Shown here: positions 9,309 through 31,602 of the stretch, in pieces
Layout of the letters: each line of letters starts with the position of its first letter
How positions within the stretch are numbered: the stretch's first letter is position 1
Origin: Lysobacter sp. Root690
GTDB lineage: Bacteria > Pseudomonadota > Gammaproteobacteria > Xanthomonadales > Xanthomonadaceae
Length of the DNA: 64,000 nucleotides
Direction of reading: 5' to 3'
NCBI RefSeq assembly: GCF_001427785.1
Contig: NZ_LMHM01000018.1
Location: forward strand, 1 to 64,000
The notes under the pieces: model-generated
The model's input: the letters and a program-made list of their open reading frames with translations, nothing else
Told to the model about the DNA's origin: nothing
Databases searched by the model: none
Made by a program: the position numbers and the translations under genes

Positions 9309-9317
9309 TGTTAAAAT
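9309..9317 (+). promoter_or_regulatory. Candidate extended -10 promoter for the BCCT gene
   Basis: TGTTAAAAT matches an extended -10 box in an AT-poor setting, with no good -35 upstream. Similar TG-N-TAAANT boxes precede other genes in this window (18979, 34900, 41456). It lies 172 bases before the ATG chosen for the BCCT gene. That distance implies either a long leader or one of the upstream in-frame starts. Confidence 0.4.
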
Positions 9318-9488
9318 CGCCCCGCTCCGCGCACCGCACCGGACTTGCACGTCCGCTTGCGCCGTCACCGCTACGGCCATGGCTCGCAGCGCGGATCGCC
9401 CTCAACAGCCTTGCTGTCGACTCACCCGCCCGCTGATCGCGGCGGTGATCGCGCGTGCGTGATGCGCGCGTCGACGCGGCTGTGCCTC

Positions 9489-11108: not shown

Positions 11109-11171
11109 CGACGCGCACGCCGCTCAGCGTGCAGAAAGCTCAACTTGCGAGCGACGCAGCGCGCAAGTTAT

Positions 11172-11588
11172 TCAGCGCGAAAGCCGACGCAACGCGATGC
11201 CGAGCGCGATGCGATAACTCATCGCCAGATCGCCGTTGATCACGATCGTCGCCAGCGGCGGCGCGTGCGCATGCAGGCGTTCGTCCAGCGTGGTAGCGCT
11301 GGCGTCGTGAACTTCGATGTAAGCGCTGGGCAATTCGTCCAGCGCCTGACGCAGGGCGTCGGGTTCGGCCAAGGCTTGCGGCGCGAGCTCGCCCGGGTCG
11401 AGCAGCACGAATTCGCTGCGGCGACGGCGCGCGGCGCGCAGGCTGCCGACCAGCTCGCGCAGGCTGGCGCAGGGGCGCAGCTCGAGGTTGCGGCCGACCG
11501 CCGCGGCGAGGCCGCGCAGTTCGAGCAGGAATTGCGATTGCAGCGGTTGCGAAGACAGATGACGGCCTTGCAGAATCAGGATGCTCAC
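11172..11588 (-). CDS. Degenerate type II 3-dehydroquinate dehydratase (AroQ)-like protein
   Basis: A 138-residue protein from a GTG at 11588. Its whole length lines up with AroQ dehydroquinases: ILILQGRHL matches the usual LVLNGPNLN strand, FVLLDPGEL matches ILINPGAY, AYIEVHDAS matches PVVEVHLSN, and TIVINGDLAMSYRIALGIAL matches the last strand and helix. Key active-site features are missing. The Asn of GPNLN is replaced, the flexible loop with the catalytic Tyr is shortened away, and the HAREPFR block with its Arg is absent. Only a histidine (His94) is kept. It is therefore unlikely to be a dehydratase. The reading frame is intact, so I call it a diverged paralogue rather than a pseudogene. 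The start is uncertain because there is no clear ribosome site. It overlaps no neighbour. Confidence 0.6.
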   Translation of the reverse strand: MSILILQGRHLSSQPLQSQFLLELRGLAAAVGRNLELRPCASLRELVGSLRAARRRRSEFVLLDPGELAPQALAEPDALRQALDELPSAYIEVHDASATTLDERLHAHAPPLATIVINGDLAMSYRIALGIALRRLSR

Positions 11589-11841
11589 GGGAAGTGTTGA
11601 CGGGGAAGACGCCGACAGCTTGCGCGCGGGTCCGGTAAAGCTTCCATGCCTTCGCCGCGCCGGCCGCATAAATTCTGCGCAAATCGTTGCGGTCATTGTT
11701 CGCCGCGGCCTCAACCTGCACGATGGGCCGGCATCTGCGAGGTCAGCGCGCGTGCGCGCAATCGCCGCCGCGCGGTAAAAGCCCGCGCCCGCTGGTTGCT
11801 GGCCGCATCGCGCCGGCCGCGATCGGGCGCGGCGCACTCGC

Positions 11842-13215: not shown

Positions 13216-13582
13216 TGCTATCGACTCCTTCGCTGAGTGCGGCGGCCGGGCGCGGCCGCAGTGTGGGTCTGGAACTTAGCATGCAGGCGATGCGGGCGAG
13301 GTCGCGCCCTCGATCCGAGGCGAACCCGCCGATCCCGCGCACCCCACATGACTGACGACACCCTTCCGCGCGCGCGAACGGGTTTATCGTCGGCCGATCA
13401 CGTTGAGGGCCGACGACGACGGGCCGCATCGAGAGCCATCGCCAGTCACGCAGGCGTCGCAGCCGTGGGCGTTCGCGCCATCGCCGCTGCATCGTGGCCG
13501 CCGCCACGCCGCCGTTTCGTTCACAACCCCGATCTGCGCCACGTCAGATCCTTCCCATGCCCGTCGGCCCGGAGTCTCACTG
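13216..13582. other. Divergent intergenic region with duplicated promoter-like block
   Basis: This 367-base region carries the promoters of the minus-strand RNase-like gene and the plus-strand M13 gene. Bases 13342-13395 (starting CCCCACATGACTGACGACAC) align without gaps to 15890-15943 upstream of the second M13 gene. About 43 of 54 bases match, including ACGGG-TTATCGT, which may be a -10 region. GGAG at 13571 is the ribosome site of the M13 gene. No additional coding sequence is supported. Confidence 0.6.
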
Positions 13583-15688: not shown

Positions 15689-15699
15689 GATGTTGAAAA

Positions 15700-15850
15700 A
15701 ACAGTGGAGAGGAGTGAGGAGTGAGTCAGAGCGGCTTTGCTCGTTTCTCACTCCTCTTTCTCGTTTTCCTCGCCGCAGCGTGAGTAAGCGACGAGCGGCC
15801 TTTACTCACTCCTCACTCCTCTCAACTCGTTCCTCGCTTCCCGCCTCGCT
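15700..15850. repeat. Dispersed repeat R3 (GAGGAGTGAGGAGTGAGT family), copy 1
   Basis: GAGAGGAGTGAGGAGTGAGT at about 15708 is followed by an inverted counterpart TTACTCACTCCTCACTCC at about 15802, with further CTCACTCCTC fragments between. The same element and its inverted partner recur at about 37270-37350 and 54467-54545. Each copy starts shortly after a stop codon. The arms could pair into a hairpin. It is noncoding and its origin and role are unknown. Confidence 0.7.
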
Positions 15851-16034
15851 TCCCGCCAGACGGGGCAAAACTGAACGGCCCCCGCCCCACCCCACATGAC
15901 CTTCGACACCCTTCTCACGAGCGGAACGGGACTATCGTCCGCCCGTGTCCTGGCTGCGACCTCACCTCGTGGTCGGAAATCCGCGACAATTCCCGATTCG
16001 TTTCTCGCCTATGCCTTCCCGGCTGGAGCCCGCT

Positions 16035-18146: not shown

Positions 18147-18193
18147 GGAACGCGGCGCGGGGATAGTCCCGCACCAACGCGAATCGCCTGACG

Positions 18194-18225
18194 AAGGCCC
18201 GGGGATTCCCGGGCCTTTGTTTTTT
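18194..18225. terminator. Rho-independent terminator after M13 paralogue 2
   Basis: The perfect hairpin AAGGCCCGGG-GATT-CCCGGGCCTT is followed by TTGTTTTTT. It ends the M13 paralogue 2 transcript and may also stop the convergent gene at 18301. Confidence 0.9.
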
Positions 18226-18300
18226 GGGCGTTTTGTGGCTTCGAGAGGCGGCTCGTCTACGCCGGCAGGCCATCGGCGCGGTGTGTCCGCGCGCGATCGC

Positions 18301-18705
18301 TCACGCCTCGCTCCAGCTCAGGTACTCGCCGTGCGCGGCGGTGAAAAACCGCATCCGCGCCGCGACGATGTGGGCGAACCACGGGCGATGGACGCCTTCG
18401 ACCGCGAAACGGAAGACCTCGCCACCGTTGCCGTCGAAGAAGCGCTCGCGCATCTCGTCCGGCAACGTGGCTGGATCGATGTTCGAGAACACATGCGCGT
18501 CGGTGGCGGTGCGCCAGGTCATCGGGCAATCGAGATAGCCCACATCGCCGAACTCGATCTGCAGCTGGTAGCCGCAGCTCACGTCCAGGGTGCCGCGGAC
18601 GATCAGGCTGACCTCGTCGTAAGCGACCAGATGAAAATCCATCCACGGGTAGGCCCGGATGGCCGCGTCGAGCGCCTGCTCGCCGGTTTTGTAGTCTGGG
18701 GTCAT
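18301..18705 (-). CDS. Hypothetical protein, 134 residues
   Basis: A soluble, acidic protein with no signal peptide or membrane segment. Notable segments are YPWMDFHLVAYDEVSLIVRG and FAVEGVHRPWFAHIV. I do not recognise the family. The composition (aromatic-rich, acidic, single small domain) is like that of many immunity or adaptor proteins, but there is no toxin gene beside it. It is convergent with M13 paralogue 2 and divergent from paralogue 3. Codon use matches its neighbours. Confidence 0.65.
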   Translation of the reverse strand: MTPDYKTGEQALDAAIRAYPWMDFHLVAYDEVSLIVRGTLDVSCGYQLQIEFGDVGYLDCPMTWRTATDAHVFSNIDPATLPDEMRERFFDGNGGEVFRFAVEGVHRPWFAHIVAARMRFFTAAHGEYLSWSEA

Positions 18706-18782
18706 GGGTATCCGGATGTACGCAACGCGTCGCCGAGTCTACTTCGATCGACTGCCCGTCCTGTCCAAACACCCTCTTCAAG

Positions 18783-18905
18783 CTCCCTCTCCCGCTTGCG
18801 GGAGAGGGTTGGGGTGAGGGCCCGCCTCAAGCAGCGACAGTTCACATCCCGCGCACCCTCATCCGCCCTTCGGGCACCTTCTCCCGCGTTGCGGGAGAAG
18901 GACCG
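18783..18905. repeat. Inverted repeats R6 (CTCTCCCGC / GCGGGAGAG family)
   Basis: CTCTCCCGCTTGCGGGAGAG at 18786 and the related CTTCTCCCGCGTTGCGGGAG at about 18880 are two short palindromes about 95 bases apart, each followed by typical flanks (GGGTTGGGGTGAGGGC; CTCATCCGCCCTTCGGG). A related copy (CTCTCCCGTGGACGGGAGAG) lies at about 47438 in the tgt-yajC gap. They are noncoding REP-like elements. Confidence 0.65.
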
Positions 18906-18978
18906 CATGCACCGTCCCAGCACAACCGCACCGCCCGCCACAACCGCCAAACCCGTTCATCGCCTCACCCGCCCCAGT

Positions 18979-18987
18979 TGTTAAACT
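18979..18987 (+). promoter_or_regulatory. Candidate extended -10 promoter for M13 paralogue 3
   Basis: TGTTAAACT is an extended -10 match 27 bases before the chosen ATG at 19014. That spacing suits a short leader. No clear -35 is visible, as is common with extended -10 promoters. Confidence 0.45.
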
Positions 18988-19013
18988 CCCGCATCCCCAG
19001 GATGGAATACGCG

Positions 19014-21026
19014 ATGTCGACCCTACGCCCGCTTGCCTGTGCCCTCGCCCTGAGCCTGATCGCCGGCCTGGCCTCGCCCGCCGCCGATGCCGCCAAGAAG
19101 AAGGCCGCCGCCAAGCCGAAGGCGCCGGCCGCCGCCAACGCCTGCGGCGATTTCTACGCCAGCGCCAACGCCGATTGGCTGCGCGCCAACCCGCTATCGG
19201 GCGCCGCATCGGTGTCCTCGCTGGAAACCCTGGCCGCCAACGCCCGCCGCCAGCAGCTGGAACTGCTCAACAGCGCGATGACCGCGCCGCAGGGCAACGT
19301 GCAGAAGCTGCTCGGCGACTTCTGGGCCAGCGGCCTGGACGAAGCGGCGGTCGAACGCGACGGCTCGCAGCCGATCGCACCGCTGCTCGGCCGCATCAAC
19401 GCGATCAAGAAGGCCAAGGAAATCCCGGCCTCGATCGCCGCGCTGCATCAGGTCGGCATCCCGGTGCTGTTCAACTTCGGCGCCGACATCGACCTGCAGG
19501 ACCTCGACCGCCACATCGGCTACTTCAGCCAGGGCGGCCTCGGCCTGCCCGACCCGGCCTATTACACCCGCAGCGACGCCGACACCCGCCAGCTGCTCGG
19601 CCACTACAACAACTACGTGCAGAAGATCCTGACCCTGACCGGCACGCCGAAGGAAAAACTCGCGGCCGAGTCGCAGCAGGTGATCGACCTGGAAACCCGC
19701 ATCGCGCGCGCGTCCAAGGCGCTGCCGGACCTGCGCGATCCGCGCGCCAACTACGCGCCGGTGCAGGTCGCCACCCTGGCCAAGACCTACAAGGGCCTGC
19801 AGCTGGCCGACTTCCTCAAGGCCCAGGGCGTCAGCGACGACAGCGTCTCGCTGGCCAACCCGCAGCTGTTCGCCGAACTCGACAAGCTGCTGGGCAGCCT
19901 CAAGCCCGACCAGTGGAAGACCTACCTGCGCTGGCGGGTCGGCGATTCGATGGCGCCGTACCTGGCCAAGCCGTTCCGCGACGCCGAATTCGATTTCCGC
20001 GGCAAGGTCCTGCGCGGCCAGCGCGAACAGCCCGCGCGCCAGCAGGCCGTGCTCGACGCGATCACCCTCGCCGCCGGCCCGATGGTCGGCCACGAATACG
20101 CCGCGCGTTATCTGCCCGCCGCCACCGACGCGCGCGCCGAGCAGATCGCCTCGCAGGTGCGCGAAGCGCTGGGCAAGGACGTCGACGCCGACACCCGCTT
20201 CAGCGAGGCGGTCAAGAACGAAGCCAAGGCCAAGCTGGCCAAGCTCAAGATCGAAGTCGGCACGCCCAAGCGCGACCTGGATTACACCGTGCAGCCGATG
20301 GGCCGCGGCAGCTTCGGCAGCAACATGCTGATCGCCTCGACCTGGCGCCATCGCGAGGAAATGAAGCGCATCGGCCGCGGCAACGCCGACCGCCGCTGGG
20401 ACGTGCTGCCGCAGGAGCCGTCGCTGGCCTACGACATCGCCCAGAACCGCCTGATCGTCACCGCCGCGATGCTGCAGGCGCCGGTGCTCGACATGAGCAA
20501 GCCCGAAGCCGCGCAGTACGGTTCCTACGGCGCGCTGGTCGGCGCCGAACTGACCCACGGCATCGACGGCCGCGGCCGCTACGTCAACGCCAAGCAGGAA
20601 GTGCGCGACTGGTGGACGCCGACCGAAGTCGCCGCCTGGGAAGCGCTCGGCAGCCGCGTCGCCGCGCAGTACAGCGCCGAATCGTATCCGGGCCTGACCG
20701 CGACCAAGATCAACGGCGGACAGGTGCGCGAAGTCGCGATCGCCGATCAGGCCGGCGTCGAACTCGCCTGGTCGGCCCTGCATGCCGCTCAGCCTTCGGC
20801 CAGCAAGGACGCCAATCAGGCGTTCTTCCGCGCCTGGGCCGGCCTGTGGGCGCAGCAGCTGAGCCCGGAAGTCGCCGCCCAGCGCGCCGCCACCGGCATC
20901 CACGCGCCGGGCCCGGCGCGCACCAACGTGCCGCTGTCCAACCTGCCCGCGTTCGGCGAAGCCTTCGGCTGCAAGGCCGGCACCGCGATGCAGCGCAAGG
21001 CCGATCAGCAGATCAAGATTTTCTGA
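19014..21026 (+). CDS. M13-family protein with lost zinc site (probable pseudopeptidase)
   Basis: A 670-residue M13 homologue with an ordinary signal peptide (about residues 1-27, ending SPAADA) rather than a lipobox. It aligns with the two upstream paralogues, but HEMTH reads AELTH (Ala511, Glu512, His515). ENIADLGG reads VAIADQAG, so the third zinc ligand Glu is Val574. The NAYYNP substrate motif reads LAYDIAQNRLIV. Two of three zinc ligands are therefore absent and catalysis is unlikely. The frame is open and full length with normal codon use, so it is kept by selection or was lost only recently. It could act as a binding or chaperone-like protein. The start is either 19002 or 19014; 19014 has the better spacing to GGA. 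Confidence 0.9.
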   Translation: MSTLRPLACALALSLIAGLASPAADAAKKKAAAKPKAPAAANACGDFYASANADWLRANPLSGAASVSSLETLAANARRQQLELLNSAMTAPQGNVQKLLGDFWASGLDEAAVERDGSQPIAPLLGRINAIKKAKEIPASIAALHQVGIPVLFNFGADIDLQDLDRHIGYFSQGGLGLPDPAYYTRSDADTRQLLGHYNNYVQKILTLTGTPKEKLAAESQQVIDLETRIARASKALPDLRDPRANYAPVQVATLAKTYKGLQLADFLKAQGVSDDSVSLANPQLFAELDKLLGSLKPDQWKTYLRWRVGDSMAPYLAKPFRDAEFDFRGKVLRGQREQPARQQAVLDAITLAAGPMVGHEYAARYLPAATDARAEQIASQVREALGKDVDADTRFSEAVKNEAKAKLAKLKIEVGTPKRDLDYTVQPMGRGSFGSNMLIASTWRHREEMKRIGRGNADRRWDVLPQEPSLAYDIAQNRLIVTAAMLQAPVLDMSKPEAAQYGSYGALVGAELTHGIDGRGRYVNAKQEVRDWWTPTEVAAWEALGSRVAAQYSAESYPGLTATKINGGQVREVAIADQAGVELAWSALHAAQPSASKDANQAFFRAWAGLWAQQLSPEVAAQRAATGIHAPGPARTNVPLSNLPAFGEAFGCKAGTAMQRKADQQIKIF

Positions 21027-21070
21027 TTGGTTTCGCCGCGGCATTGCGCCGCAAATGCGATAACGCGAAA

Positions 21071-21095
21071 AGCCCGGCGCACGCCGGGCTTTTTG
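21071..21095. terminator. Rho-independent terminator after M13 paralogue 3
   Basis: Hairpin AGCCCGGCG-CA-CGCCGGGCT followed by TTTTTG. It lies 45 bases after the stop codon, between convergent genes. Confidence 0.9.
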
Positions 21096-21127
21096 TTGGG
21101 CGATGATGATTCGTCGTAGTCGGGGTG

Positions 21128-21236
21128 TCGCGGTCGCGGCTTGTGACCGAAGGAAATCCAGTAGGACGCCGCTCCTACAGGGGGATACGCAAGCCACGTT
21201 TCAAACTGTAGGAGCGGCGCGAGCCGCGACCGCGAA
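21128..21236. repeat. Dispersed repeat R1, inverted pair
   Basis: A direct copy of R1 occupies 21206-21236. On the opposite strand, an R1-like sequence split by an insert of about 25 bases occupies 21128-21181 (GCCGCTCCTACAG at its right end). The two copies face each other and could form one large hairpin between the terminator and the convergent bpX6 gene. Confidence 0.65.
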
Positions 21237-21305
21237 CCATCGACTTCCGCGCAACGTCATCGCGGCGACGCAACCACACACCCGACGCCAGGCAAGGCGC
21301 ACGAA

Positions 21306-24074
21306 TCACAGCAACGTAAACGTCCGCACCTTCGAGGTATCACTGGCGATATCCATCACCCGCCCCTGGTGATCGAACAGCAACACCCCGCCCTCGTACT
21401 CGCGCGTGCGCAACGCCGCCGACGGCCAATCGATGCTCGCCGCCACATCCGCATGCAACGGCCGCACCAGATGCAATCGCATCGCACGGTCGCCGCGCAA
21501 CCACACCAGGCAACCCTGGGTCAGCGGGATCACGCCGTGCCCGCTGAGCTCGCCGGACGGCGGCGACAGCCGTATCTGGAAATCGCGCGTGCCCCAGGTG
21601 TAAGCGAAGCGGACGGCGCCATCGTCGTCCTGGGTCAGTTGCAGCGGCAACACGCCCATCGCCGGATGCAATTGACGGAAACGTCCGTCCTCGACAATCG
21701 GATCGCGCGACAGCAAGCGCCGCTGCGGCGCATTGCGATAACGCCACAGCACCTGCTCGCGATCGCCGCGCACCAGAAACGATTCCTCGATCGGGAAGAA
21801 TTCCGCCGCGATCACCGGGCCGCCCAGATCGCCCACGCTCCACAGCACGTCCAGCGACGCGCGCGCCGCATCCACCACCATGATCCGCTCGCCCGACACC
21901 ACCGACCAGGCGATGCCGTCGAAGCGATCGGCGAAGAACTGCAGCGGCATCGCGCCCAGATCGGTGATGTCGTGATGGGGCAGATCCAGCCGCGCGATCC
22001 GCGACACCGAATCGCGCCGCGCGATCGCCAGCGCGATCTGGCCGCTGTGGCTCATCACGAACCGGTACGCGGGCACCGCATAGCTGCGCACGCGTCGGCC
22101 GCCGCGATCGACCACCGCGGCGCCGGCCTCGCCCAACGCCACCAGATAGCGGCCGTCGCCGAGCGCGGCCACGTCGTGCAGCGATTGCAGGCCCGGCGCA
22201 TCCGGCGCGCTCGCGTTCAACGCGCCCGTCGTTTCCCACAAACGGCGCCGGCCCGGCGGCGTTGGCAGCGACCATCCGGGCAGATCGGCGTTGAGCCACG
22301 GATCGTCGGCCAACTTGCGCAGGCGTTCGAACTGCACGCGCTCGATATCGTTCGCGCACGCGGCGCGATCGGCGGCCAGCGCCGGCAACACCTGGGCCGC
22401 GAGCGCGCGCAGCGCCGGGTTTGTTTGCTTGACCTCGGCCAGATCGCGGCCCAAGGCCTCGCGTGGCGCGGCCGGCGAAGCCGGATCGGCCAGGCGCGCG
22501 ATGCGTTCGGCGTAGTGGTGCACGGTATCGGGCAACAGACTCGCGCGTTGCACCAGCGCGCGCGCGGACAATTCGGCGCCGGCCGCTTCGGCCGCCAACA
22601 GCCAGCGCCCGGCTTGCTCGCGCGCCTGCGGATCGGGCCACACCGCGTCGACCGCGGCCAGCCACAGGCCCTGCTCGGCCAGCGCCTGTCCCCACTCGCC
22701 GCGCAATTGCCGCGCCTGCTGCGGATGGCCGTTTTCCAGCAGCGCGACCGCCGCGGCGAAGGCATTGTCGCGACGCGCGACCAGCACCGCGCGTTCGCGG
22801 TCGCCGGCCAACATCAGCAAACGGATGATCAGATCCGGCGCCATGTCCCAGCTCAGCGCCAGTTCGGCGGCCTGGGCGAAACGCTCGTGCTTGACCAGAT
22901 AGTCCAGCGCTTCGTTGCGCGCGCTCAGCAATTCGGCGAGCACGAACACTGCTTCGTCGATCTTGCCCTGGCGATCGAGTTGTTCGAACGCGTTGCGGTA
23001 CAACTTGCGCAAGCGATCGCGCGCGCTGTCGCCGAAATCGATCGAAGGCGCCGCGCCGTTGCCCTGGCTCAGGCGCAGACTGTCGCGCCGACCCGGCGCA
23101 CTGAACGCCTGCCCCAGCGAATCGCCGCTGCCGTCGATCGGCAAGGCATTGCGCAAGGCTTCGTTGAGATCGCCGCGATCGAACTGCTCCATCAGCCGGC
23201 GCAGGTACGCGCCGTGACGCATGCCGATCAGCCGCGACGCGCGGCTGGCGATGGCGAAACGCACCAGCATGTCGCGCCAGCGTTGCGGCACGATCGAGGG
23301 ATTACGCGGCCGCACGCTGCCGCCGCCGGTGCCCACGCCCCGGCCGCTGTTCGCCGCGCCGCCACCGCCACCGGCTGGCGCACCGCCGCCCGACAAACCG
23401 GGGAAACGCTGCAACAACCAGTCGGCCATGCGATCGCGCGTGCCGACCGCGCGTTCGCGCAAACTCGGCTTTGCGCTGGAGAATCCCTCGCCGACGGATT
23501 TTCCGCTGGCGTCCCTGCCCGCGCCGCGCGCCGCCGCATCGCGCAGGAACGCTTCGCGCTCCTGGCTCGGCGGCGGAATCTTGTCGCCCAATACGTCGCG
23601 CAAGGGTTTGCCGGTCAAGCGGCCGGCCTTGGGCAAGGCCAGGCTGCGGCGGCCGTCGTAAGTGTCGTGCAAGGCGTAGTCGTCGATGTCGATCACCAGC
23701 GACGGATCGAGCGCCTGCGCCTTGGCGAACTGCAGCGCCTGCAACTGTCCGCCGATCACCAGATGTACGTCGCCCGCTTCGAGCGTGGCGCGTTCCTCGG
23801 CGGTCAGCGGGCCGGCGTACAGACCCTGCGCGCCGACCTGGCGCAGCGGCGTGCCGCCAGCGAATTCGCATTGCAGCATGCGCGGCGCTTCGAAACACAG
23901 CACATCGCCGTGCTCGAATCGCCATGCGCGGCAGCCGGGCATCCATTCGTGCAGGATGCGTTCGCTGCGCTGCTCCGGCGACAGCCAGTCGGCGGCCAGC
24001 CACAGCCCGTCGACCGTCTGCCGGCCGCGCCAGATCGGGTAGCGCACGTTCGCGCGAGCGGTCGGCTCAGTCAT
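21306..24074 (-). CDS. bpX6-type beta-propeller protein of a MoxR-vWA ternary system
   Basis: A large soluble protein of 922 residues with no signal peptide. The N-terminal ~150 residues (VRYPIWRGRQTVDGLWLAAD onward) look like the domain named bpX6 in MoxR-vWA-beta-propeller ternary systems. A Gly/Ala-rich low-complexity linker follows at about 260-290. A helical, TPR-like middle comes next. The C-terminal ~330 residues have repeated beta-strand patterns (DGRYLVALGEAGAAVVDRGG and similar) suggestive of a propeller. The ATG at 24074 overlaps the upstream gene by eight bases; a start at 24089 is less likely. It is the last gene of the four-gene MoxR operon. The domain name is from memory and should be checked by profile search. 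Confidence 0.7.
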   Translation of the reverse strand: MTEPTARANVRYPIWRGRQTVDGLWLAADWLSPEQRSERILHEWMPGCRAWRFEHGDVLCFEAPRMLQCEFAGGTPLRQVGAQGLYAGPLTAEERATLEAGDVHLVIGGQLQALQFAKAQALDPSLVIDIDDYALHDTYDGRRSLALPKAGRLTGKPLRDVLGDKIPPPSQEREAFLRDAAARGAGRDASGKSVGEGFSSAKPSLRERAVGTRDRMADWLLQRFPGLSGGGAPAGGGGGAANSGRGVGTGGGSVRPRNPSIVPQRWRDMLVRFAIASRASRLIGMRHGAYLRRLMEQFDRGDLNEALRNALPIDGSGDSLGQAFSAPGRRDSLRLSQGNGAAPSIDFGDSARDRLRKLYRNAFEQLDRQGKIDEAVFVLAELLSARNEALDYLVKHERFAQAAELALSWDMAPDLIIRLLMLAGDRERAVLVARRDNAFAAAVALLENGHPQQARQLRGEWGQALAEQGLWLAAVDAVWPDPQAREQAGRWLLAAEAAGAELSARALVQRASLLPDTVHHYAERIARLADPASPAAPREALGRDLAEVKQTNPALRALAAQVLPALAADRAACANDIERVQFERLRKLADDPWLNADLPGWSLPTPPGRRRLWETTGALNASAPDAPGLQSLHDVAALGDGRYLVALGEAGAAVVDRGGRRVRSYAVPAYRFVMSHSGQIALAIARRDSVSRIARLDLPHHDITDLGAMPLQFFADRFDGIAWSVVSGERIMVVDAARASLDVLWSVGDLGGPVIAAEFFPIEESFLVRGDREQVLWRYRNAPQRRLLSRDPIVEDGRFRQLHPAMGVLPLQLTQDDDGAVRFAYTWGTRDFQIRLSPPSGELSGHGVIPLTQGCLVWLRGDRAMRLHLVRPLHADVAASIDWPSAALRTREYEGGVLLFDHQGRVMDIASDTSKVRTFTLL

Positions 24075-25929
24075 CGCCGCCTCCGGCATACACCAGCACG
24101 CTCTTGGCGCGATCGCGCAACACCACCAACCGGCCTTGCAGATCGATCAGTGCGATCGCGTCGCAATCGGTGGCGACGCTGATGGCCGAGATCTGATAGG
24201 GCGATTCGTACAACGTCGCGCGGCCTTGCGCACCGATGCTGACCACCGCTCTGCGATCGGGCCGCAGCGCGATCAGGTCGAGTTCGTCGGCGTCGTTCAT
24301 GCTCAAGCCCACGACCTTCCAGTCCGCCGGCAGCACGATCTCGTGATCGGCGGACTTGGCCCGATGCTTACTGCGCAGGAACACGCGCCAGATGCTGGAG
24401 CGCTCGCCGCCATGACCACCCACCGGCTGTTCCACGCAACAGCCGCCGTGCCAACCGGGCCAACCTGTGCCGACCCAACGCCCACACAGGAAACCGGTAC
24501 GGGCTTCGCCCGACAACGCGATCTTTTCCAGGAGTCGACCGGTTTGTACACCCAGCAGCTCGCAACGCAGCTCATTGCCCAACTGGCGCAAATGCAAGGC
24601 ATGATCGTTGCCGGCATGGGCGATCGCCAGAGTGCGGCCGGCGAAAATCTCGTACTCCGCGCGCGGCGCGCCGAAGTTGGTCTGGGTCCACGACAACAGC
24701 CGCCCCTGGCCGGACAGCAACAGCAAGCGTGCGTGCGGGCGGGCATTCGAAGTTCCCCTGAGCGCGGCGCAGGGCAACCACCGCGCCCGGCTGGCCGCTG
24801 GATCGAACTCCTCCACCGGCGGCAAATCGACGCCGCGCAGCGGCGCGAGTTGCCAGAATTCGAGTCGCTCCGAATGCGCCACCACCCCGCCAAAATGCCG
24901 ACCGACCAAGGTCGCCGCCAGCAGCGTTTTCTCCCTGGCCCAGCGCGTGATCTTCGGCGGCGACTGCGGTCGCATCGTCGCGCGCGGCAGCCGGTAGACG
25001 TTGGCGGCGTTTTCCCCGAGCAGCGGCACGGCGACGCTGTGGCCGTCGAACGAAATCAATGGCGGTTGCTTCAGCGACAACCTGCCGGTGCCGGACAGCA
25101 CCGACTCATCGCGTAAGACCGACGCGAACTGCCCGCGCAACAGGCGTGAGGACAATTTCGGATCCGGCAGATTCAGCCGCCCCTCGCGCCGCGCCTGCCG
25201 CGCGGCGATCACGATCGCCAACTCGCTTTCGCTCGCGCGCTGCACGTCGACGCGATGACCCAGGCCATAACCGTGCGCATGCGAGCCGATCGACCAGCGT
25301 TCGCCCGGGCTGGGTTGCGCCGCATCCAGCCATTGCTGCCATTCGCGTTCATGATCCTCGCGCGGCGGCGGCAGTCCGGCCTGCGCCGCGCGTTGCCACG
25401 CGGCTTCGCCGCCCGGGGTGAAGCTGCGTTCGTTCAACAGCCGCTTGAGCGCATCGGCGTTGTCGGCGTCGAACAACTCGCCCGGCTTGCCGAGCACGCC
25501 CCAGGCGAAGCGCGCCTTGGCCGCCTGCGCGCGCTGCGCCAGCAGGATCCACATCGCCACATGCACCAGCCGCGGCGCGCCCAGTTGCGAGGGGCCGGTG
25601 TCGAACACCGCCACGGTCAGCGCATCGACTTCGCGCGCGACCAGTTTCGGCGACAGGAACAGATGCTCGCCGGCGGCGGCGCGGCGATCGAATTCTTCCG
25701 GCACCACGTCGGCCATCGCCCATTCGCTCAGCAACAGGCGTTCGTAACTGCCGCGCCGGCGCAGGTCGTCGATGCCCTCAGGCTCGACCGCCCCGCGCAA
25801 CGCGCGCATGCGGAACGCACCGAGCATCGGATGCAGGCGCAGCATCAACTCGCCGAGCACGCCGGCCAGTTCCGGGTCGAACCACCCCAGCCAGGCATGC
25901 CACGGTTTGAGCGTATCGGGCAGGCGCAT
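24067..25929 (-). CDS. vWA-like / beta-propeller protein of the ternary system
   Basis: A soluble 620-residue protein. Residues about 105-190 resemble a von Willebrand A fold: LTVAVFDTGPSQLG sits where the DxSxS metal site is expected, followed by helix-strand alternation (RFAWGVLGKPGELFDA). The metal motif reads D-T-G-P-S, so it is partly degenerate. From about residue 220 on the protein is strand-rich with repeated segments such as RLEFWQLAP and RLLSWTQTNFG, consistent with a beta-propeller. It is expected to form a client or adaptor complex with the MoxR ATPase, by analogy with other MoxR-vWA pairs. It starts four bases after the bpX5-like gene ends and overlaps the bpX6 gene. No membrane segment is visible. 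Confidence 0.7.
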   Translation of the reverse strand: MRLPDTLKPWHAWLGWFDPELAGVLGELMLRLHPMLGAFRMRALRGAVEPEGIDDLRRRGSYERLLLSEWAMADVVPEEFDRRAAAGEHLFLSPKLVAREVDALTVAVFDTGPSQLGAPRLVHVAMWILLAQRAQAAKARFAWGVLGKPGELFDADNADALKRLLNERSFTPGGEAAWQRAAQAGLPPPREDHEREWQQWLDAAQPSPGERWSIGSHAHGYGLGHRVDVQRASESELAIVIAARQARREGRLNLPDPKLSSRLLRGQFASVLRDESVLSGTGRLSLKQPPLISFDGHSVAVPLLGENAANVYRLPRATMRPQSPPKITRWAREKTLLAATLVGRHFGGVVAHSERLEFWQLAPLRGVDLPPVEEFDPAASRARWLPCAALRGTSNARPHARLLLLSGQGRLLSWTQTNFGAPRAEYEIFAGRTLAIAHAGNDHALHLRQLGNELRCELLGVQTGRLLEKIALSGEARTGFLCGRWVGTGWPGWHGGCCVEQPVGGHGGERSSIWRVFLRSKHRAKSADHEIVLPADWKVVGLSMNDADELDLIALRPDRRAVVSIGAQGRATLYESPYQISAISVATDCDAIALIDLQGRLVVLRDRAKSVLVYAGGGDD

Positions 25930-25932
25930 CGC

Positions 25933-26349
25933 TCAACCCCGCCAATGGCTGCGGATCTGCGCGATCAGCGCCGCCGTCGCCGGCAAGGCGCGATGCAGCG
26001 GCACGATTTGCGCCGGTTCGCGCAGCAGCAACAACGGCGACTGCGGATGCCGGCGCGCGATCGCGCGATGCAGCAGGTCCAGCGGCAAGTCGGGACGTTC
26101 CACCGTCGACAGCCACAGCGCCGGCGCATCGGCGCGCGGCGCGACATAGGCCACGCCCTCGCTCCACGGCAGCGATTGCGCCGCGCCGGTCACGATCACC
26201 ACATCGTCGTTGGCGGTCAGCATCAGGCGCTCGCGCAAGGCCTCGTCCAGACGCTCAATCGCGTCCAGCAGCCCCCGCGCCGCCGCGCCGACCCCGACCG
26301 CGCCCTGCGGCGGCGGCGGATCGGCTTCGCTCCGCCAACCCCACTTCAT
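25933..26349 (-). CDS. bpX5-type small protein of the ternary system
   Basis: A 138-residue soluble protein. It starts MKWGWRSEADPPPPQGAVGV and contains LPWSEGVAYVAPR and ALWLSTVERPDLP, a pattern I associate with the bpX5 domain of MoxR-vWA-beta-propeller systems. The ATG at 26349 overlaps the MoxR stop as ATGA, so translation is coupled. Longer in-frame starts fall inside the MoxR gene and are rejected. The function is unknown; it is presumably a structural component or adaptor of the complex. Confidence 0.68.
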   Translation of the reverse strand: MKWGWRSEADPPPPQGAVGVGAAARGLLDAIERLDEALRERLMLTANDDVVIVTGAAQSLPWSEGVAYVAPRADAPALWLSTVERPDLPLDLLHRAIARRHPQSPLLLLREPAQIVPLHRALPATAALIAQIRSHWRG

Positions 26350-27488
26350 GTCGGCGTCGCGACCCGTTCGATCAGCCGCGCGCGCTCGGCGGCGAGTTCG
26401 GGCGGCAGCGATTTCGCGTCGAAGTTCGCATCGATTTCGCGCAGCAGCGCTTCGGCGATGGTCGCTGTGCCCGGTGCGTCGGCGCCGGCCTGCAGGCAGC
26501 TGCGCGCGGCTTCGACCAGGCGCGCGGCGCGCGACACCGGCTGCAGCACCGCGTGTTCGACCGCGGCGCGCAGGGTCGGATTGGCCGCGGCCGACATCGA
26601 ATCGCGCAGCACGTCCTGGGCGCTGGCCTGCGCCTCGCGGGTCGGCATGACGTAGAACAGCGGCCACAGATCGGCATCGGTCGCGGTGTCGCGGCCGGCC
26701 AGCACCGTGGCCGCGGCGATCAGGCGCTGGACCTTGACGATGCGGCGGTCCGACAGGCTCAGGCCGGCGCCGCGCAATTTACGGATCGCATCGGCGAGTA
26801 AGCCGCGCGCGTGGGTCAGATCGACCAGCGGCACGCGCCGGCTGAGTTCGTCGATGTCGGACAATTCGGTGCGATGCGCCAGCGGCGCGCGCTCGGACTG
26901 CCAGCCGCCTTCGAGCAAGGCTTCGAGCTGATGATCCGGCACCGGCTCGACGAACAGATGCAGCAGGAAACGATCGGCGAACGCGGCCAGCGATTCGTCG
27001 TCTGGCAAGGCATTGGCCGCGCCGACGCAGACCCGCAGCGGGCATTCGATCTGGGTGTGGCCGCGACGGAAACGGCGCTCGTTGAGCACGCCGAGCAAGG
27101 TGTTGAGGATCGCGGTCGAACCCAGGAACACTTCGTCGAGGAACGCGACCTCGGCCTCCGGCAGCATGCCGCTGACATCGGTCTCGACCACGCCCTCGCG
27201 CAGCCGGCGCAGGTCGACCGGGCCGAACAATTCCGACGGCTCGGTGAAACGGCCCAGCAGGTATTCGAAATAACGCCCGCCCAATGCGCTGGCGACGCGG
27301 CGCACGACCGCGCTCTTGGCGGTGCCGGGCGGGCCGAGGATCAGCAGATGCTCTTGCGCGACCGCGGCCAGCACGATCAGCTCGGCGAGTTGCTCGCGTT
27401 CGATCAGGCCGACGGTGGCCGAATGCACGGCATCGCGGACGCGGGCCGCGGCCTGCTGCGCGGCGGTGGGTTCGATCGGAAGAGTCAT
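26346..27488 (-). CDS. MoxR-family AAA+ ATPase
   Basis: A 380-residue ATPase. Walker A is GPPGTAKS (52-59), Walker B is VAFLDE (114-119), followed by the MoxR-typical FLGSTAILNTLLGVLNERRF and the sensor segment GAANALPDD. A lid region with the sensor-2 arginine area follows, and the C-terminal ~120 residues are helical. MoxR ATPases act with vWA proteins as chaperones for assembly or activation of partner complexes. The ATG at 27488 gives the family-like N-terminus; upstream in-frame codons lie in the divergent promoter region. It is the first gene of the ternary operon (MoxR, bpX5-like, vWA-like, bpX6-like), and the genes overlap or nearly touch. Confidence 0.88.
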   Translation of the reverse strand: MTLPIEPTAAQQAAARVRDAVHSATVGLIEREQLAELIVLAAVAQEHLLILGPPGTAKSAVVRRVASALGGRYFEYLLGRFTEPSELFGPVDLRRLREGVVETDVSGMLPEAEVAFLDEVFLGSTAILNTLLGVLNERRFRRGHTQIECPLRVCVGAANALPDDESLAAFADRFLLHLFVEPVPDHQLEALLEGGWQSERAPLAHRTELSDIDELSRRVPLVDLTHARGLLADAIRKLRGAGLSLSDRRIVKVQRLIAAATVLAGRDTATDADLWPLFYVMPTREAQASAQDVLRDSMSAAANPTLRAAVEHAVLQPVSRAARLVEAARSCLQAGADAPGTATIAEALLREIDANFDAKSLPPELAAERARLIERVATPT

Positions 27489-27750
27489 GGAGTGGACGGC
27501 CTGGATCCTTGGCGGCCCGCGCGAGGCGGACAACGGCGACGTGCGGACGGGACGCGGCGCGCGTTCGGCTTGCGACCGGCGCCACATTGCGCACTGTAGG
27601 CGCGCGCCCGCGCGTCCCGCAACCACGGCATGCGAGGATCGCGCGCGGCGCCGTCGCGACCGGCTCGGCGTTGACACATGAACGGCCTGTGCCGGCCGAT
27701 TTTTCATTACCCTATCGGCTCGCGACACCGGCCAGGATCCCGCTCACGCC
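27489..27750. promoter_or_regulatory. Divergent promoter region between MoxR and CDC48-like operons
   Basis: These 262 bases separate the two operons and must hold both promoters. TTGACA at 27671 and the AT-rich TTTTTCATTACCCTATCGG at about 27700-27718 are the likeliest plus-strand elements, but the spacing does not fit one standard sigma-70 pair. The shared region suggests joint control of the two operons. Confidence 0.4.
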
Positions 27751-29118
27751 ATGCCCGACACCTCTCTCGACGACCTGCTCGCCGCGCTCGCGGCCAGTCC
27801 GCAGAACCCGGCCCTGCGGATGCTGGTGGTCAACGCCTGCCTGGCCGAGGCCGATGCCGAGGCGCTGAGCCGCGCGATCGAACTGGCCGGCGACGATCTG
27901 CTCAGCGATCCGACCCAGCGCGACGCCGCCGTGCGCGTGCTGCTGCAATACGGTCGCGACGAACTGGTCGCCCGGATCGCCCCGGACGATTCCGCCGCCG
28001 CGCTGTTCGCGCTCGCCCGCCTGCGCCTGGCCGAAGGCGATCGCGACAGCGCGCGCGGGTTGTACCAGCAGGCGGTCGCGCTCAATCCGGCGTTGGAAGA
28101 CGCCGCGCTCGCGAACGAACTGGCCGGCAAGGTGATTTCCTTCGCCAACGCCAAGCGTCAGCAGTCCGAAGGCCTGCGCCCCGGCGCGCAGGCCAGCCTG
28201 GCCAACGACGACACCGACGCCGACGACGTGACCCGGCTGTTGCAGCCGCCGCAGGCACGGATCGCGTTCGGCGACGTCGGCGGGCTCGACGAGGTCAAGC
28301 ACCAGATCCGCCGCCGCATCATCACCCCGTTCCTCAAGCCCTCGCTGTTCGAGCGCTTCAAGCGCCGCTCCGGGGGCGGCATCTTGCTGTATGGCCCGCC
28401 CGGCTGCGGCAAGACCCTGCTCGCGCGCGCTACCGCCGGCGAATGCGGGGCGAAGTTCTACAACGTGGCGATCACCGACGTGCTCGACATGTATATCGGC
28501 GAATCCGAGCGCAAGCTGCACGCGATCTTCGAAACCGCGCGGCGCACCGCGCCGGCGGTGGTGTTCTTCGACGAAGTCGAGGCGATCGGCGGCAAGCGCC
28601 AGTATTCGCGCGAGGCGACGTCGGCCAAATTGGTCAGCCAGTTCTTGACCGAACTCGACGGCTTCGCCCAGAACAACCACGGCGTGCTGATCCTGGGCGC
28701 GACCAACGTGCCGTGGGCGGTCGACGCCGCGTTCCGCCGTCCCGGCCGCTTCGACCGCGTGCTGTTCGTGCCGCCGCCGGACGAAACCGCGCGGCGCTCG
28801 ATCGTCGATCTGCTGCTGCGCGATCGCCCGCTCGGCGAGGGCATCGATGCGGGCGAACTGGCGCGGCTGACCTCGGGGTTTTCCGGCGCCGACCTGCGCA
28901 ACCTGGTCGAGACCGCGATCGACGAAGCGATCGAGGATTCGATCGAACAGGGCCGCGAAACCCCGTTGACCATGACCCACCTGCGCGCCGCGCTCAAGGA
29001 CACGCGCTCGACCACGCTGGAATGGCTGACCACCGCGCGCAATCACGCGCGCTATGCCAACCAGGGCGGCCAGTACGACGAGGTGCTGGATTTCCTCAAG
29101 CGCCACGGAGGCGGCTGA
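27751..29118 (+). CDS. CDC48-like AAA+ ATPase with N-terminal TPR-like region
   Basis: A 455-residue protein. Residues 1-135 are helical and repeat-like (ALFALARLRLAEGDRDSARG followed by LYQQAVALNP is a TPR unit). An AAA+ module of the CDC48/FtsH/spastin type follows: DVGGLDEVKHQIRRRI (175-190), Walker A GPPGCGKT (215-222), Walker B VVFFDE (270-275), and the second region of homology ATNVPWAVDAAFRRPGRFDR. There is no protease domain, so it is probably an unfoldase or disassembly chaperone. It overlaps the next gene by one base (TGATG). The position opposite the MoxR operon suggests it is part of the same system. Confidence 0.87.
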   Translation: MPDTSLDDLLAALAASPQNPALRMLVVNACLAEADAEALSRAIELAGDDLLSDPTQRDAAVRVLLQYGRDELVARIAPDDSAAALFALARLRLAEGDRDSARGLYQQAVALNPALEDAALANELAGKVISFANAKRQQSEGLRPGAQASLANDDTDADDVTRLLQPPQARIAFGDVGGLDEVKHQIRRRIITPFLKPSLFERFKRRSGGGILLYGPPGCGKTLLARATAGECGAKFYNVAITDVLDMYIGESERKLHAIFETARRTAPAVVFFDEVEAIGGKRQYSREATSAKLVSQFLTELDGFAQNNHGVLILGATNVPWAVDAAFRRPGRFDRVLFVPPPDETARRSIVDLLLRDRPLGEGIDAGELARLTSGFSGADLRNLVETAIDEAIEDSIEQGRETPLTMTHLRAALKDTRSTTLEWLTTARNHARYANQGGQYDEVLDFLKRHGGG

Positions 29119-29594
29119 TGGCGGCCCTGCCCTATCGCCTGCCGGACGAACCGCGGCCGTCCGGGCTGTCGCGTTACGCGGTCGATCCCTTATGGCCGTT
29201 GCTGACGCTGATGCTTGCCGGCGGCGGCTTCGGCCTGGCCTGGTTCGCGTTCAACAGCGCCGCGCTCGGCAGTCCGACCCGCGGCCGCGAATGGGCCTGC
29301 GTCGCGCTGAGCGTGTTCGGCACCGTCGCGCTGGTGTTCACGATCGGCGTGCTGCTGGGCAGCGGTTGGCTGCGGCCCGAGCATCAGGCCTACGCGTTCT
29401 TGTCGTTGTTGCTGCTCAAGGTCGGCGTGGCCTATGCGCTGTATCTGATGCAGCAACGCTGTTTCGAAATCTTCGAGCACTACGGCGGCGAGCCGCGCAA
29501 CGGCATGCCGCTGATGATCCTGCTCGCCGTGGTCGGCCGCGGCGCGCTCGACATGACCGGCTGGCCGCTGATGCTGCGGTTGGTGCTGCAATGA
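29118..29594 (+). CDS. Membrane protein, four predicted helices, unknown function
   Basis: A 158-residue protein. Hydrophobic helices are at about 27-48, 59-84, 92-113 and 131-155. The N-terminal 20 residues are Pro/Arg-rich and probably cytoplasmic. I do not recognise the family. The start overlaps the stop of the AAA+ gene (TGATG), and its stop overlaps the next start (ATGA), so all three are translationally coupled. It may anchor the AAA+/TPR proteins at the membrane. Confidence 0.75.
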   Translation: MAALPYRLPDEPRPSGLSRYAVDPLWPLLTLMLAGGGFGLAWFAFNSAALGSPTRGREWACVALSVFGTVALVFTIGVLLGSGWLRPEHQAYAFLSLLLLKVGVAYALYLMQQRCFEIFEHYGGEPRNGMPLMILLAVVGRGALDMTGWPLMLRLVLQ

Positions 29595-30517
29595 GCCGCC
29601 ACGATCATTTTTACCGCATGGCCGAGCGTTATTACGCCAACGGCCAGATCGACGACGCCATCGGCATGCTGCTGCAGGCGCTCGGCGAAGACCCGGACCA
29701 ATCCGATGCGCATGCGTTCCTGTCGCTGTGCCTGATCAAGCGCCAGCGCCTGCACGCGGCCGAACTGGAAGCCGCGCGCGCGCTCGAACTCGAACCCGAA
29801 TCGCCGTTCGCCCACCTCGCCGCCGCGATCGCGGCGATCGCGCGGCGCAATCTGAAACAGGCGCAGGCGCATCTGGACTCGGCGCGCGAACTGCAACCCG
29901 ACTCGGCCGCGATCGCCGACGCCTACGCCCGCCTGTACCTGGCCTGGGGCCGCGACGCGCAGGCGCTGGAGGAAGCGCGACGCGCCTGCGAACTCGACCC
30001 GGACGATCCCGATTACCCGGCCCTGCTCGCCTCGCTGGAGCTGCGTCGCGGCGATCGCGCGCGCGCCGAAGCTTTGGCGCGCGACGTGCTGCGCGGCCAT
30101 CCCGAACACGTCGAGGCCTTGTGCGTGCTAGGTCACTGCGAACTCGCCGCCGGCCGCACCGACAGCGCGCGCGATCACGCCGCCTGGGCCTTGCAGATCG
30201 ATCCGATGGACGGCGAAGCGCTGACCCTGATGGCCGCGGTCAAGGCGCGGCGCAGCTGGCTGCTGGGCCTGTGGTGGCGTTTCCAGAGTTTCGTCAGCGC
30301 CGGCTCGCGCACCCGCGCGGTGGTGCTGCTGATCGGCATGTTCCTGATCTACCGCATCGCCCTGATCGCGCTTCCGCAGAACGGCCTGCCGCAGTGGACC
30401 GGTCCGCTTTCGTATGCGTGGCTGCTGTTCTGCGCCTATACCTGGATCGCGCCGAGTCTGTTCTGGCGGTCGGTCAAGAAGGAACTGGAACAGGTGAAGC
30501 TGCGGCCGGGTTTTTAA
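29591..30517 (+). CDS. TPR-repeat protein with C-terminal membrane anchor
   Basis: A 308-residue protein with about six tetratricopeptide units from residue 5 to about 205. Examples are RMAERYYANGQIDDAIGMLL, AYARLYLAWGRDAQALEEAR and ALCVLGHCELAAGRTDSARD. Two hydrophobic helices follow near residues 238-260 and 272-290, and a basic tail ends in RPGF. The TPR region would lie in the cytoplasm as a protein-binding platform. It is the last gene of the AAA+ operon, with a four-base overlap to the membrane protein gene. Confidence 0.82.
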   Translation: MSRHDHFYRMAERYYANGQIDDAIGMLLQALGEDPDQSDAHAFLSLCLIKRQRLHAAELEAARALELEPESPFAHLAAAIAAIARRNLKQAQAHLDSARELQPDSAAIADAYARLYLAWGRDAQALEEARRACELDPDDPDYPALLASLELRRGDRARAEALARDVLRGHPEHVEALCVLGHCELAAGRTDSARDHAAWALQIDPMDGEALTLMAAVKARRSWLLGLWWRFQSFVSAGSRTRAVVLLIGMFLIYRIALIALPQNGLPQWTGPLSYAWLLFCAYTWIAPSLFWRSVKKELEQVKLRPGF

Positions 30518-30527
30518 GTCCGCGAGC

Positions 30528-30830
30528 TCAGACTCGGCGCATCACACTGGCGCGAACAGTCGGATCGAATCGGAGCTCGTCCACGGCGATGACGTCGGCG
30601 GCAGCAACATCGCCGATCGTGCCCGTATCGAAAACGGCCCGTGCGGCCTCAAGTTCGTTGCCAACGAACTTGACCCGGAAGAACGGCGGATATTCGTCGG
30701 CGTCATCGTCGAACTGCGAATCCAGCAGCCAAAAACCATCATCGTTGTTGCCCGCGAGCGCCCATCGCGGGACATCGCAGAAATCAGCGTAAACAACGAT
30801 AGACAACCACGTCGTAACGGGCATCTTCAC
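30528..30830 (-). CDS. Hypothetical acidic protein, 100 residues
   Basis: A small acidic protein with no signal or membrane segment. It contains ADFCDVPRWALAGNNDDGFW and SQFDDDADEYPPFFRVKFVG. The GTG at 30830 has GGAG eight bases upstream; an ATG two codons later is the alternative. The family is not recognised. The gene lies convergent to the TPR gene. It is slightly less GC-rich than its neighbours, which may reflect recent acquisition. Confidence 0.6.
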   Translation of the reverse strand: MKMPVTTWLSIVVYADFCDVPRWALAGNNDDGFWLLDSQFDDDADEYPPFFRVKFVGNELEAARAVFDTGTIGDVAAADVIAVDELRFDPTVRASVMRRV

Positions 30831-30873
30831 TGAAGTCGCTCCAACATGAGACCGTTGCGGCCGGGCAAAGGCC

Positions 30874-31602
30874 TTACTTCACCACCCGCAGCTTGGACGC
30901 CTTTCTGCGCTCGCGCAGTTCCCGCATCCGCGCATCGCGGCGGGCGGCGTCGCTGTTACCGCCACCGCCGTTCTTCGGCGGGTACTTGCGCCAATAGCGG
31001 ATCACCATCCAGCCCACGATCATCCCGCCCAGATGGGCGAAATGGGCCACGCCGGTGCCGGTGGTGAACACGCCGTAGAACACCGACGCCAGCGCGTAGA
31101 TGATCACCAGGGTGCGCGCCTTGAGCACGATCGGGAACGGCAGCAAGGTCACGCGGCGATTGGGAAACAACACGCCGTACGCAAGCAGCAAGCCATAGAT
31201 CGCGCCGGATGCGCCCAGGGTCAGATACAGCTGGCCCTCGTAGATCGCGATCGAGGCGAACAGCAACTGCAGCAACGCCGAACCGATCAGGCAGACGAAG
31301 TAATAGATCGCGTAACGGCGCGCGCCCCAGTGATATTCCAGCGACGCGCCGAACATCACCAGCGCGAGCATGTTGAACACCAGGTGGCCGATGCCGCCGT
31401 GCATGAAACCCGAGGTCAGCAACTGCCACGGCATGAAGCCCGGGCCGTCGACTTCGAACTGCGACGGCACCCACGGCCACAGCTCGAACCACAACGGCCA
31501 GGCGCGGGTGGACTCGCTCAGGCCCAGCAGCGATTGCAGGACGAATACGACGACATTGGCGATCAACAGTCGGCGGGTGATCGACGGGATACTGGAAAAC
31601 AT
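30874..31602 (-). CDS. Rhomboid-family intramembrane serine protease
   Basis: A 242-residue membrane protein with six predicted helices. Rhomboid motifs are present: HGGIGHLVFNML (His and Asn of the oxyanion region), LGASGAIYG with the catalytic Ser, and FAHLGGMIVGW with the catalytic His. The C-terminal ~40 residues are cytoplasmic and strongly basic (RRDARMRELRERRKASK). Rhomboids cleave single-pass membrane proteins within the bilayer; the substrate is unknown. GAGGAG lies six bases before the ATG. Confidence 0.93.
   Translation of the reverse strand: MFSSIPSITRRLLIANVVVFVLQSLLGLSESTRAWPLWFELWPWVPSQFEVDGPGFMPWQLLTSGFMHGGIGHLVFNMLALVMFGASLEYHWGARRYAIYYFVCLIGSALLQLLFASIAIYEGQLYLTLGASGAIYGLLLAYGVLFPNRRVTLLPFPIVLKARTLVIIYALASVFYGVFTTGTGVAHFAHLGGMIVGWMVIRYWRKYPPKNGGGGNSDAARRDARMRELRERRKASKLRVVK

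Follow-up and report, generated by a model that had tools for sequence, protein, structure and literature searches.

The stretch of DNA analysed here, 64,000 nucleotides of Lysobacter sp. Root690 (contig NZ_LMHM01000018.1, positions 1 to 64,000; hereafter the window), carries at 21306 to 30517 two operons that diverge from a common intergenic gap. The four minus-strand genes encode a MoxR ATPase, a bpX5 protein, a 620-residue protein and a bpX6 protein, and the three plus-strand genes encode an AAA+ ATPase, a small membrane protein and a TPR protein. All seven genes and the gap named by a first-pass annotation were found in place, overlapping or nearly touching within each operon (Table 1). 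The same genes were returned by a gene caller based on codon usage, for which these seven and one other open reading frame (ORF) were the training set, as a consistency check that is not independent. What is new at this locus is an apparently swapped β-propeller in the 620-residue protein, and this apparent swap is more interesting than the two-operon layout.

On the basis of its Pfam domains and a profile-profile alignment of its vWA protein, the minus-strand operon is a predicted β-propeller ternary system composed of bpMoxR, bpX5, a divergent vWA-propeller protein and bpX6, as the first-pass annotation had proposed. Systems of this kind were already put forward by Kaur et al. (2020, eLife 9:e52696, PMC7159879), who describe a MoxR ATPase, a vWA protein with a C-terminal propeller and a third component, place Xanthomonas among the carriers and call the systems enigmatic in having no conventional effector module. 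The Pfam matches were far beyond chance, with 306.7 bits for bpMoxR (PF20030, E 6.1e-92; the next paralogue in its own genome scored 64.7 bits), 163 bits for bpX5 (PF19921, E 3.9e-48) and 207.6 bits for bpX6 (PF19922, E 1.5e-61). The P-loop of bpMoxR, GPPGTAKS at residue 52, is of the GXXXTAKS variant that is frequent, but not universal, in β-propeller ternary systems (PMC7159879). In the third component the Pfam scan found the bpX6 domain and gave no match to TPR or propeller, and by hydropathy no hydrophobic segment was seen (no 19-residue window of ≥1.6); a membrane-spanning segment there is descriptive rather than class-defining (PMC7159879).

The 620-residue protein gave nothing useful in sequence searches of Pfam, NCBIfam, PADLOC or PDB. 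The earlier vWA call was thus without any Pfam match but held in profile-profile comparison, where residues 33 to 196 aligned with 18 planctomycete vWA components (hhalign 97.1%, E 6.8e-11). Among these, 17 matched bpX1, 10 bpX0 and 4 ivWA (best 5.1e-5); in one member the ivWA match lay at residues 226 to 285 (E 0.046). By homology only, the N-terminal region (residues ∼33 to 196) would be a divergent vWA domain; an AlphaFold model of this part, built from 6 sequences, was too poor to judge the fold. From about residue 400 the modelled structure was all-beta and mostly confident, and most of the 50 Foldseek rows obtained with the C-terminal model were WD40 or other propeller proteins, some of them entries that we take to be propellers. 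A β-propeller is therefore predicted C-terminal to the vWA region. The metal motif of the vWA region is degenerate, with DTGPS at residue 110 instead of DxSxS, the form of the metal ion-dependent adhesion site (MIDAS), and an intact MIDAS is not present. A subset of vWA domains of the β-propeller class lacks one or both MIDAS aspartates (PMC7159879), so that an intact site is not class-defining.

The complete order MoxR-bpX5-vWA-bpX6 was also found in G551, and MoxR-bpX5-vWA was repeated in G254, whose contig breaks off within the vWA gene. Planctomycete loci showed a parallel order, in which MoxR is followed by a protein of ∼240 aa, the vWA protein and then a third protein of ∼900 aa, and in the bpX5 and bpX6 places, where scanned, bpX2 was matched in L225 and bpX3 in L220 and L225. 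In the bp systems of L225 (spanning 7782 to 15843), L220 and L224, a ∼210-aa gene precedes MoxR, with a bpX4 match in L225, the only one scanned.

To locate variation within the locus, genomes were compared with one per species, G000 being the window genome. Between G000 and G248, the median identity of 100-nt intervals over 19001 to 31000 was 0.94, and a single block in the propeller-coding part of the vWA gene (Table 1) fell to 0.39 to 0.67 in all eleven of its intervals. The corresponding protein identities were 0.97 for the vWA N-terminus (residues 1 to 140) and 0.48 for the propeller half (residues 241 to 620), while the average over five further proteins encoded at the locus (those of M13, two transport-region genes, MoxR and rhomboid) was 0.985. 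Synonymous divergence (dS) reached 0.75 to 1.4 across the propeller, compared with 0.07 to 0.23 in ten other locus genes. The block, 1.1 kb long, sharply bounded and raised in dS, suggests that divergent DNA has replaced this segment, and not that constraint was relaxed. The pattern was repeated between G249 and G241, with 0.96 for the other proteins, 0.92 for the vWA N-terminus and 0.41 for the propeller. In five other close pairs the propeller half was still 0.81 to 0.94 identical, and in G116 the mosaic was patchier.

The same part stood out across clade A, a group of 14 genus genomes defined by the flanking-gene tree described below. Mean pairwise identity there was 0.84 for residues 1 to 140 of the vWA protein and 0.46 for residues 141 to 620, with 0.88 for MoxR, 0.85 for the AAA+ protein, 0.90 for M13 and 0.63 for bpX6, making the propeller the most variable part of the locus and bpX6 the second. 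Within bpX6, residues 186 to 280 were at 0.47 and residues 561 to 926 at 0.57, with residues 281 to 560 the most conserved at 0.74. The propeller of the vWA protein therefore appears to be a cassette exchanged between related bacteria by recombination, and it is probably the recognition part; the mosaic points to residues ∼241 to 620 as the candidate sensor. No paper on propeller exchange in β-propeller systems was among the matches listed.

The plus-strand operon had been annotated as a CDC48-like AAA+ protein, a membrane protein and a TPR protein with a membrane segment, and Pfam, NCBIfam, hydropathy and structural modelling agreed with this. The AAA+ protein matched Pfam AAA with 137.2 bits over a single domain (residues 211 to 341), and its closest NCBIfam model was CDC48 (TIGR01243, 5.4e-64), at 216.7 bits against a cut-off of 802.65. 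It has intact sequences that we take to be the Walker motifs, an aromatic pore loop (YIG) and RRPGRFDR. At the C terminus lies the motif ARNHARYANQGGQYD, of the type ARN......GQYD, and in a cross-phylum alignment W425, ARN and GQYD were invariant in 16 proteins. The TPR-like N-terminus claimed for this protein fell below the Pfam cut-off but was modelled as helical repeats at residues 11 to 120 (pLDDT 88 to 96), and the AAA module was modelled as p97-like. Sequence and model together indicate a CDC48-like ATPase of the classical clade with a TPR-like N-terminus. The 158-residue membrane protein had no family above cut-off in Pfam or NCBIfam, and of the four helices attributed to it, two passed a strict hydropathy cut-off and the other two did not. 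The TPR protein matched TPR_19 with 71.5 bits, and a hydrophobic segment at residues 243 to 261 indicates at least one C-terminal membrane segment.

Searching with the C-terminal part of the AAA+ protein returned 29 loci, of which 15 belong to Lysobacteraceae and the other 14 to Planctomycetota (including Kuenenia), Myxococcales, Bacteroidota and Armatimonadota. With 14 further, chosen loci these gave a nonrandom set of 43, in which neighbours were counted by profile on six-frame ORFs; L087, L092, L101 and L107 had little flank. A same-strand TPR gene lay within 1.5 kb of the AAA+ gene in 40 of the 43, the exceptions being L087 and L107, at contig ends, and L215. The profile of the small membrane protein (TM4) matched in 18 loci, an M13 gene was directly upstream in 9, and MoxR or bpX genes were nearby in 5, all of them in Lysobacter. 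Extra hydrophobic segments in planctomycete TPR proteins had suggested a fusion with the small membrane protein, which the TM4 profile did not support; small proteins of L095, L096 and L216 gave weak matches to this profile. The plus-strand operon is thus a separate, widespread membrane module found in at least three phyla. No paper describing the AAA+/membrane/TPR operon was among the matches listed, and none of the Pfam or NCBIfam matches was a model dedicated to the GQYD AAA+/TPR family; this family is an uncharacterised membrane machine worth naming.

Table 1. Features of the locus and its surroundings in the window
Feature	Coordinates	Strand	Details
M13 peptidase-like gene	19002..21026	+	Peptidase_M13_N 284.6 bits
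bpX6 gene	21306..24089	-	927 aa; bpX6 domain residues 14-182
vWA/propeller gene	24067..25929	-	620 aa; 23 bp overlap with bpX6 gene
Propeller cassette, apparently exchanged	24101..25200	-	eleven 100-nt intervals of low nucleotide identity, G000 vs G248
bpX5 gene	25933..26349	-	138 aa; 3 bp from vWA gene
bpMoxR gene	26346..27488	-	380 aa; 4 bp overlap with bpX5 gene
Divergent intergenic gap	27489..27750		262 bp
AAA+ gene	27751..29118	+	455 aa
Small membrane protein gene	29118..29594	+	158 aa; 1 bp overlap with AAA+ gene
TPR protein gene	29591..30517	+	308 aa; 4 bp overlap with membrane protein gene
Rhomboid-family membrane protein	30874-31602	-	adjoins TPR gene

In Lysobacteraceae the usual neighbour of the AAA+ operon is the M13-like gene, found directly upstream in 9 of the 15 loci of this family. 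In the window it is the last of three M13-family genes within 7.5 kb (13583 to 21026, plus strand), of which the first two keep HEMTH/ENIAD; a 134-aa ORF lies on the opposite strand between the second and third. In the third, the motifs that provide the zinc ligands of M13 peptidases are altered, with AELTH for HExxH and VAIAD or VAVAD for ENxAD. This loss was seen in all 14 clade A genomes with the adjoining bpX operon, HELSH/ENIAD being kept in the five genomes of clade B, and g14 orthologues were degenerate in other ways. The protein looks, from these motifs, like a conserved pseudo-peptidase. The rhomboid gene on the other side was kept where the AAA+ operon is absent.

Within the gap, a TTGCGG-18-TACAGT-like pair directed towards MoxR (27622 to 27593, minus strand) was kept with small changes in 12 genus genomes, and an alignment of 12 genomes contained a conserved TTACCCTA-like block at 27707, ahead of the AAA+ start. 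A generic consensus promoter scan of the gap found none; the conserved elements may nevertheless be promoters.

The history of the locus was examined with a tree of seven flanking genes from 20 genomes (19 of the genus and the outgroup G048; G090, on a short contig, was left out), which split the genus into clade A with 14 genomes and clade B with 5. The order in clade A is M13, bpX operon, AAA+ operon and rhomboid. One clade A genome, G157, has kept the bpX operon and is without the AAA+ operon; only 365 bp (L076, 11501 to 11865) occupy the place of AAA+, TM4 and TPR, a clean absence. In clade B, four genomes have neither operon and M13 adjoins rhomboid, while in G229 the AAA+ operon occupies the M13-rhomboid slot and the bpX operon lies ∼194 kb away. 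The outgroup, which has no bpX5, also carries the AAA+ operon between M13 and rhomboid. M13 adjoins the AAA+ operon in G048, G229 and the inspected g14 genomes, and a bpX operon between M13 and the AAA+ operon was found in one Lysobacter clade only. On the simplest reading, clade A gained the bpX operon by insertion between the two.

We consider it about evenly balanced that the locus consists of two separate ATP-driven modules placed back to back, a propeller-specific ternary system and an independent membrane AAA+ module. In the ternary system, a MoxR hexamer would work with the degenerate vWA protein, whose propeller would be the specificity part and would recognise partners that vary, most likely foreign or non-kin proteins; the target might be a phage, a competitor or a kin marker. 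ATP hydrolysis by MoxR would then remodel the complex of vWA-propeller protein, bpX6 and bpX5, so that bpX6 is released or activated. In the other module, the single-ring CDC48-like ATPase would be recruited through TPR contacts to the membrane TPR protein and the small membrane protein, and would thread and remodel membrane-associated proteins.

The first-pass annotation had read the two operons as one machine. Confined to Lysobacteraceae, with the MoxR-vWA-propeller part marking or loading targets that the membrane AAA+ extracts or unfolds, this remains unlikely, yet several results favour it and so weigh against two independent modules. Among 247 family genomes, bpX5 was found in 17, TM4 in 17 and the AAA+ protein in 18, and bpX5 and TM4 occurred together in 12 against 1.2 expected (Fisher 4e-13, uncorrected for relatedness, as are all these counts); by genus, the overlap was 2 (p 0.02). 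Seven of the 12 were adjacent, all in the window's genus, and five were not. Unlinked co-occurrence was seen in G229, G061, G156, G216, G228 and G551. In the case of G229, both operons are present and unlinked and its four clade B relatives have neither (support of the G015-G229 node 0.987). In a genus sample of 20, bpX5 was present in 16, AAA+ in 15, both in 15 and neither in 4, and the operons were adjacent and divergent in 14 of the 15 genomes with both, although AAA+ identity falls to 79%. Among 199 Planctomycetota genomes, the AAA+ family was counted in 37 (28 of 65 genomes, at ≤321 bits, being dropped) and strong bp-type MoxR in 19 (bp-type MoxR was counted both ways, as 19 and 35), with an overlap of 7 against 3.5 expected (p 0.04), or 6 (p 0.08) once the centre genome, itself located by way of its AAA+ gene, was removed. 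Distant genomes found through AAA+ had a bp-scoring MoxR in 6 of 14, L096 (112.7 bits) being left ambiguous. The FtsH ternary systems are also described as having a second AAA+ (Kaur et al. 2020, PMC7159879), and there it may extract or unfold targets in a comparable way.

The wider sampling nonetheless does not support one machine, and the 43-locus count rules out a single conserved two-operon system beyond Lysobacter. The 38 loci without MoxR or bpX genes near AAA+ include G391, G338, G395 and Planctomycetota. Conversely, neither G551 nor four planctomycete loci (∼19 kb each) had an AAA+ of the GQYD family near their bp genes, and neither did 14 further planctomycete bp loci with shorter flank (L243 to L256, 8.5 to 10.5 kb). 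Six family genomes with the AAA+ gene were chosen because bpX5 is absent from them, and a bp-scoring MoxR was found in 0 of these 6; bpX5 occurred without AAA+ in G157, G064, G118, G189 and G219. In a class sample of 321 genomes, 3 had bpX5 and 8 the AAA+ family (20 of 28 matches, at ≤182 bits and in frames of ∼585 to 726 aa, were read as FtsH and dropped), with 2 shared, one of them the window's own genome. The Planctomycetota enrichment is weak, and the neighbours of weaker MoxR matches were inspected in L257 (G579, 262 bits) and L258 (G584, 210 bits), from a myxobacterial and a planctomycete genome that are two of the six distant genomes with a bp-scoring MoxR; G578, with fragments at contig ends, and G580 were left out. 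No recognised bpX or vWA gene stood beside MoxR in either locus, which counts against a bp reading of such matches, and these MoxR proteins perhaps belong to another ternary class. MoxR also seems to be served by a separate conserved promoter-like site, and the operons evolve at different tempos in clade A, with the propeller region far more divergent than AAA+ or MoxR. The association of the two modules is therefore clear in Lysobacter and weak elsewhere; beyond one Lysobacter clade homologues of the two operons are rarely adjacent, although co-occurrence in the family exceeds the uncorrected expectation.

For the ternary system itself, exchange and recognition must be set against simpler explanations. 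That the propeller diverged through relaxed constraint or decay, with neither exchange nor recognition, would fit the omega of 0.23 to 0.49 in the vWA/propeller protein compared with 0.03 to 0.08 in MoxR (six pairs), but relaxed constraint gives neither sharp edges nor a block dS several-fold that of other genes, and a full-length gene was called in every clade A genome (14 of 14) and at 7 loci from other lineages; we regard this as very unlikely. Rather unlikely, in our judgement, is that the ternary operon is an assembly chaperone of the NorQ/NorD or RavA/ViaA type for a fast-evolving envelope complex, and not a conflict system. Studied MoxR-vWA pairs do function in complex assembly and metal insertion (PMC7159879), the setting is chromosomal and syntenic in 14 of 14 clade A genomes, and Pfam revealed no effector domain. 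For a fixed client, a sharply bounded divergent block with dS near 1 would be unusual, and bpX5 is patchy, with the 17 carriers in the family noted above. Other results also count against the reading favoured here. Two isolated intervals outside the block, at 0.77 and 0.79, were the only others below 0.80 between G000 and G248; no donor allele was found for the propeller, so that exchange is read from the mosaic; searches of plasmid and phage collections gave no match to bpX5, so no mobile setting was seen, which would also suit an assembly chaperone. In PADLOC, at E up to 0.1, only the two ATPases matched (IetA, TRIP13 and other nucleotide-binding models) and the other five proteins had none, so no known defence model was matched beyond generic AAA similarity. 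A bolder combination, in which the propeller is a swappable, allele-exchanged sensor read by MoxR and the adjoining membrane AAA+ has been captured as an output arm that extracts the recognised protein from or through the inner membrane, seems improbable; if true, two motors would together serve recognition and extraction, with targets specific to each lineage.

Among known systems, the AAA module is closest in sequence and fold to Cdc48/p97, which carries two AAA domains; the protein here has one, together with a TPR-like N-terminus and the C-terminal GQYD motif. The FtsH ternary systems (Kaur et al. 2020, subsystem 3) likewise pair MoxR-vWA with a second classical-clade AAA+, but theirs has two FtsH-type domains, the first inactive (PMC7159879), whereas the one here has a single domain with intact motifs and is encoded in a separate operon. 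The minus-strand operon resembles the β-propeller systems of the same paper (subsystem 4) in the GXXXTAKS-type P-loop of bpMoxR, the vWA homologue with propeller, bpX5, bpX6 and the close gene order. It differs in that variability peaks in the vWA-linked propeller, the paper stressing the N-terminus of the third component, and in that by hydropathy this component has no hydrophobic segment; the β-propeller section of the paper contains no AAA+/membrane/TPR operon, and its main text does not use the term CDC48 (PMC7159879). The ternary system is thus of a known kind, and the module beside it is independent, with no description of it among the matches listed. In Pseudomonas syringae clade 2b-a, island RGP_32 groups a ravA ATPase, bpX5, the "6ND4" group and bpX6 (BMC Microbiol 22:278, PMC9677677); its gene set would match all four genes here if "6ND4" represents the vWA protein, and in the table that lists it the island comes without an AAA+/TPR operon or a proposed function. 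The VMAP ternary systems also couple MoxR with a vWA protein fused to a variable domain, a proposed effector or antigen sensor (PMC7159879, PMC10907252). Theirs is a C-type-lectin-like (FGS/CLec) domain diversified by reverse transcriptase, whereas here a propeller looks to have been changed by allele replacement. By analogy with these vWA-linked sensors diversified by retroelements, the propeller cassette may be a sensor.

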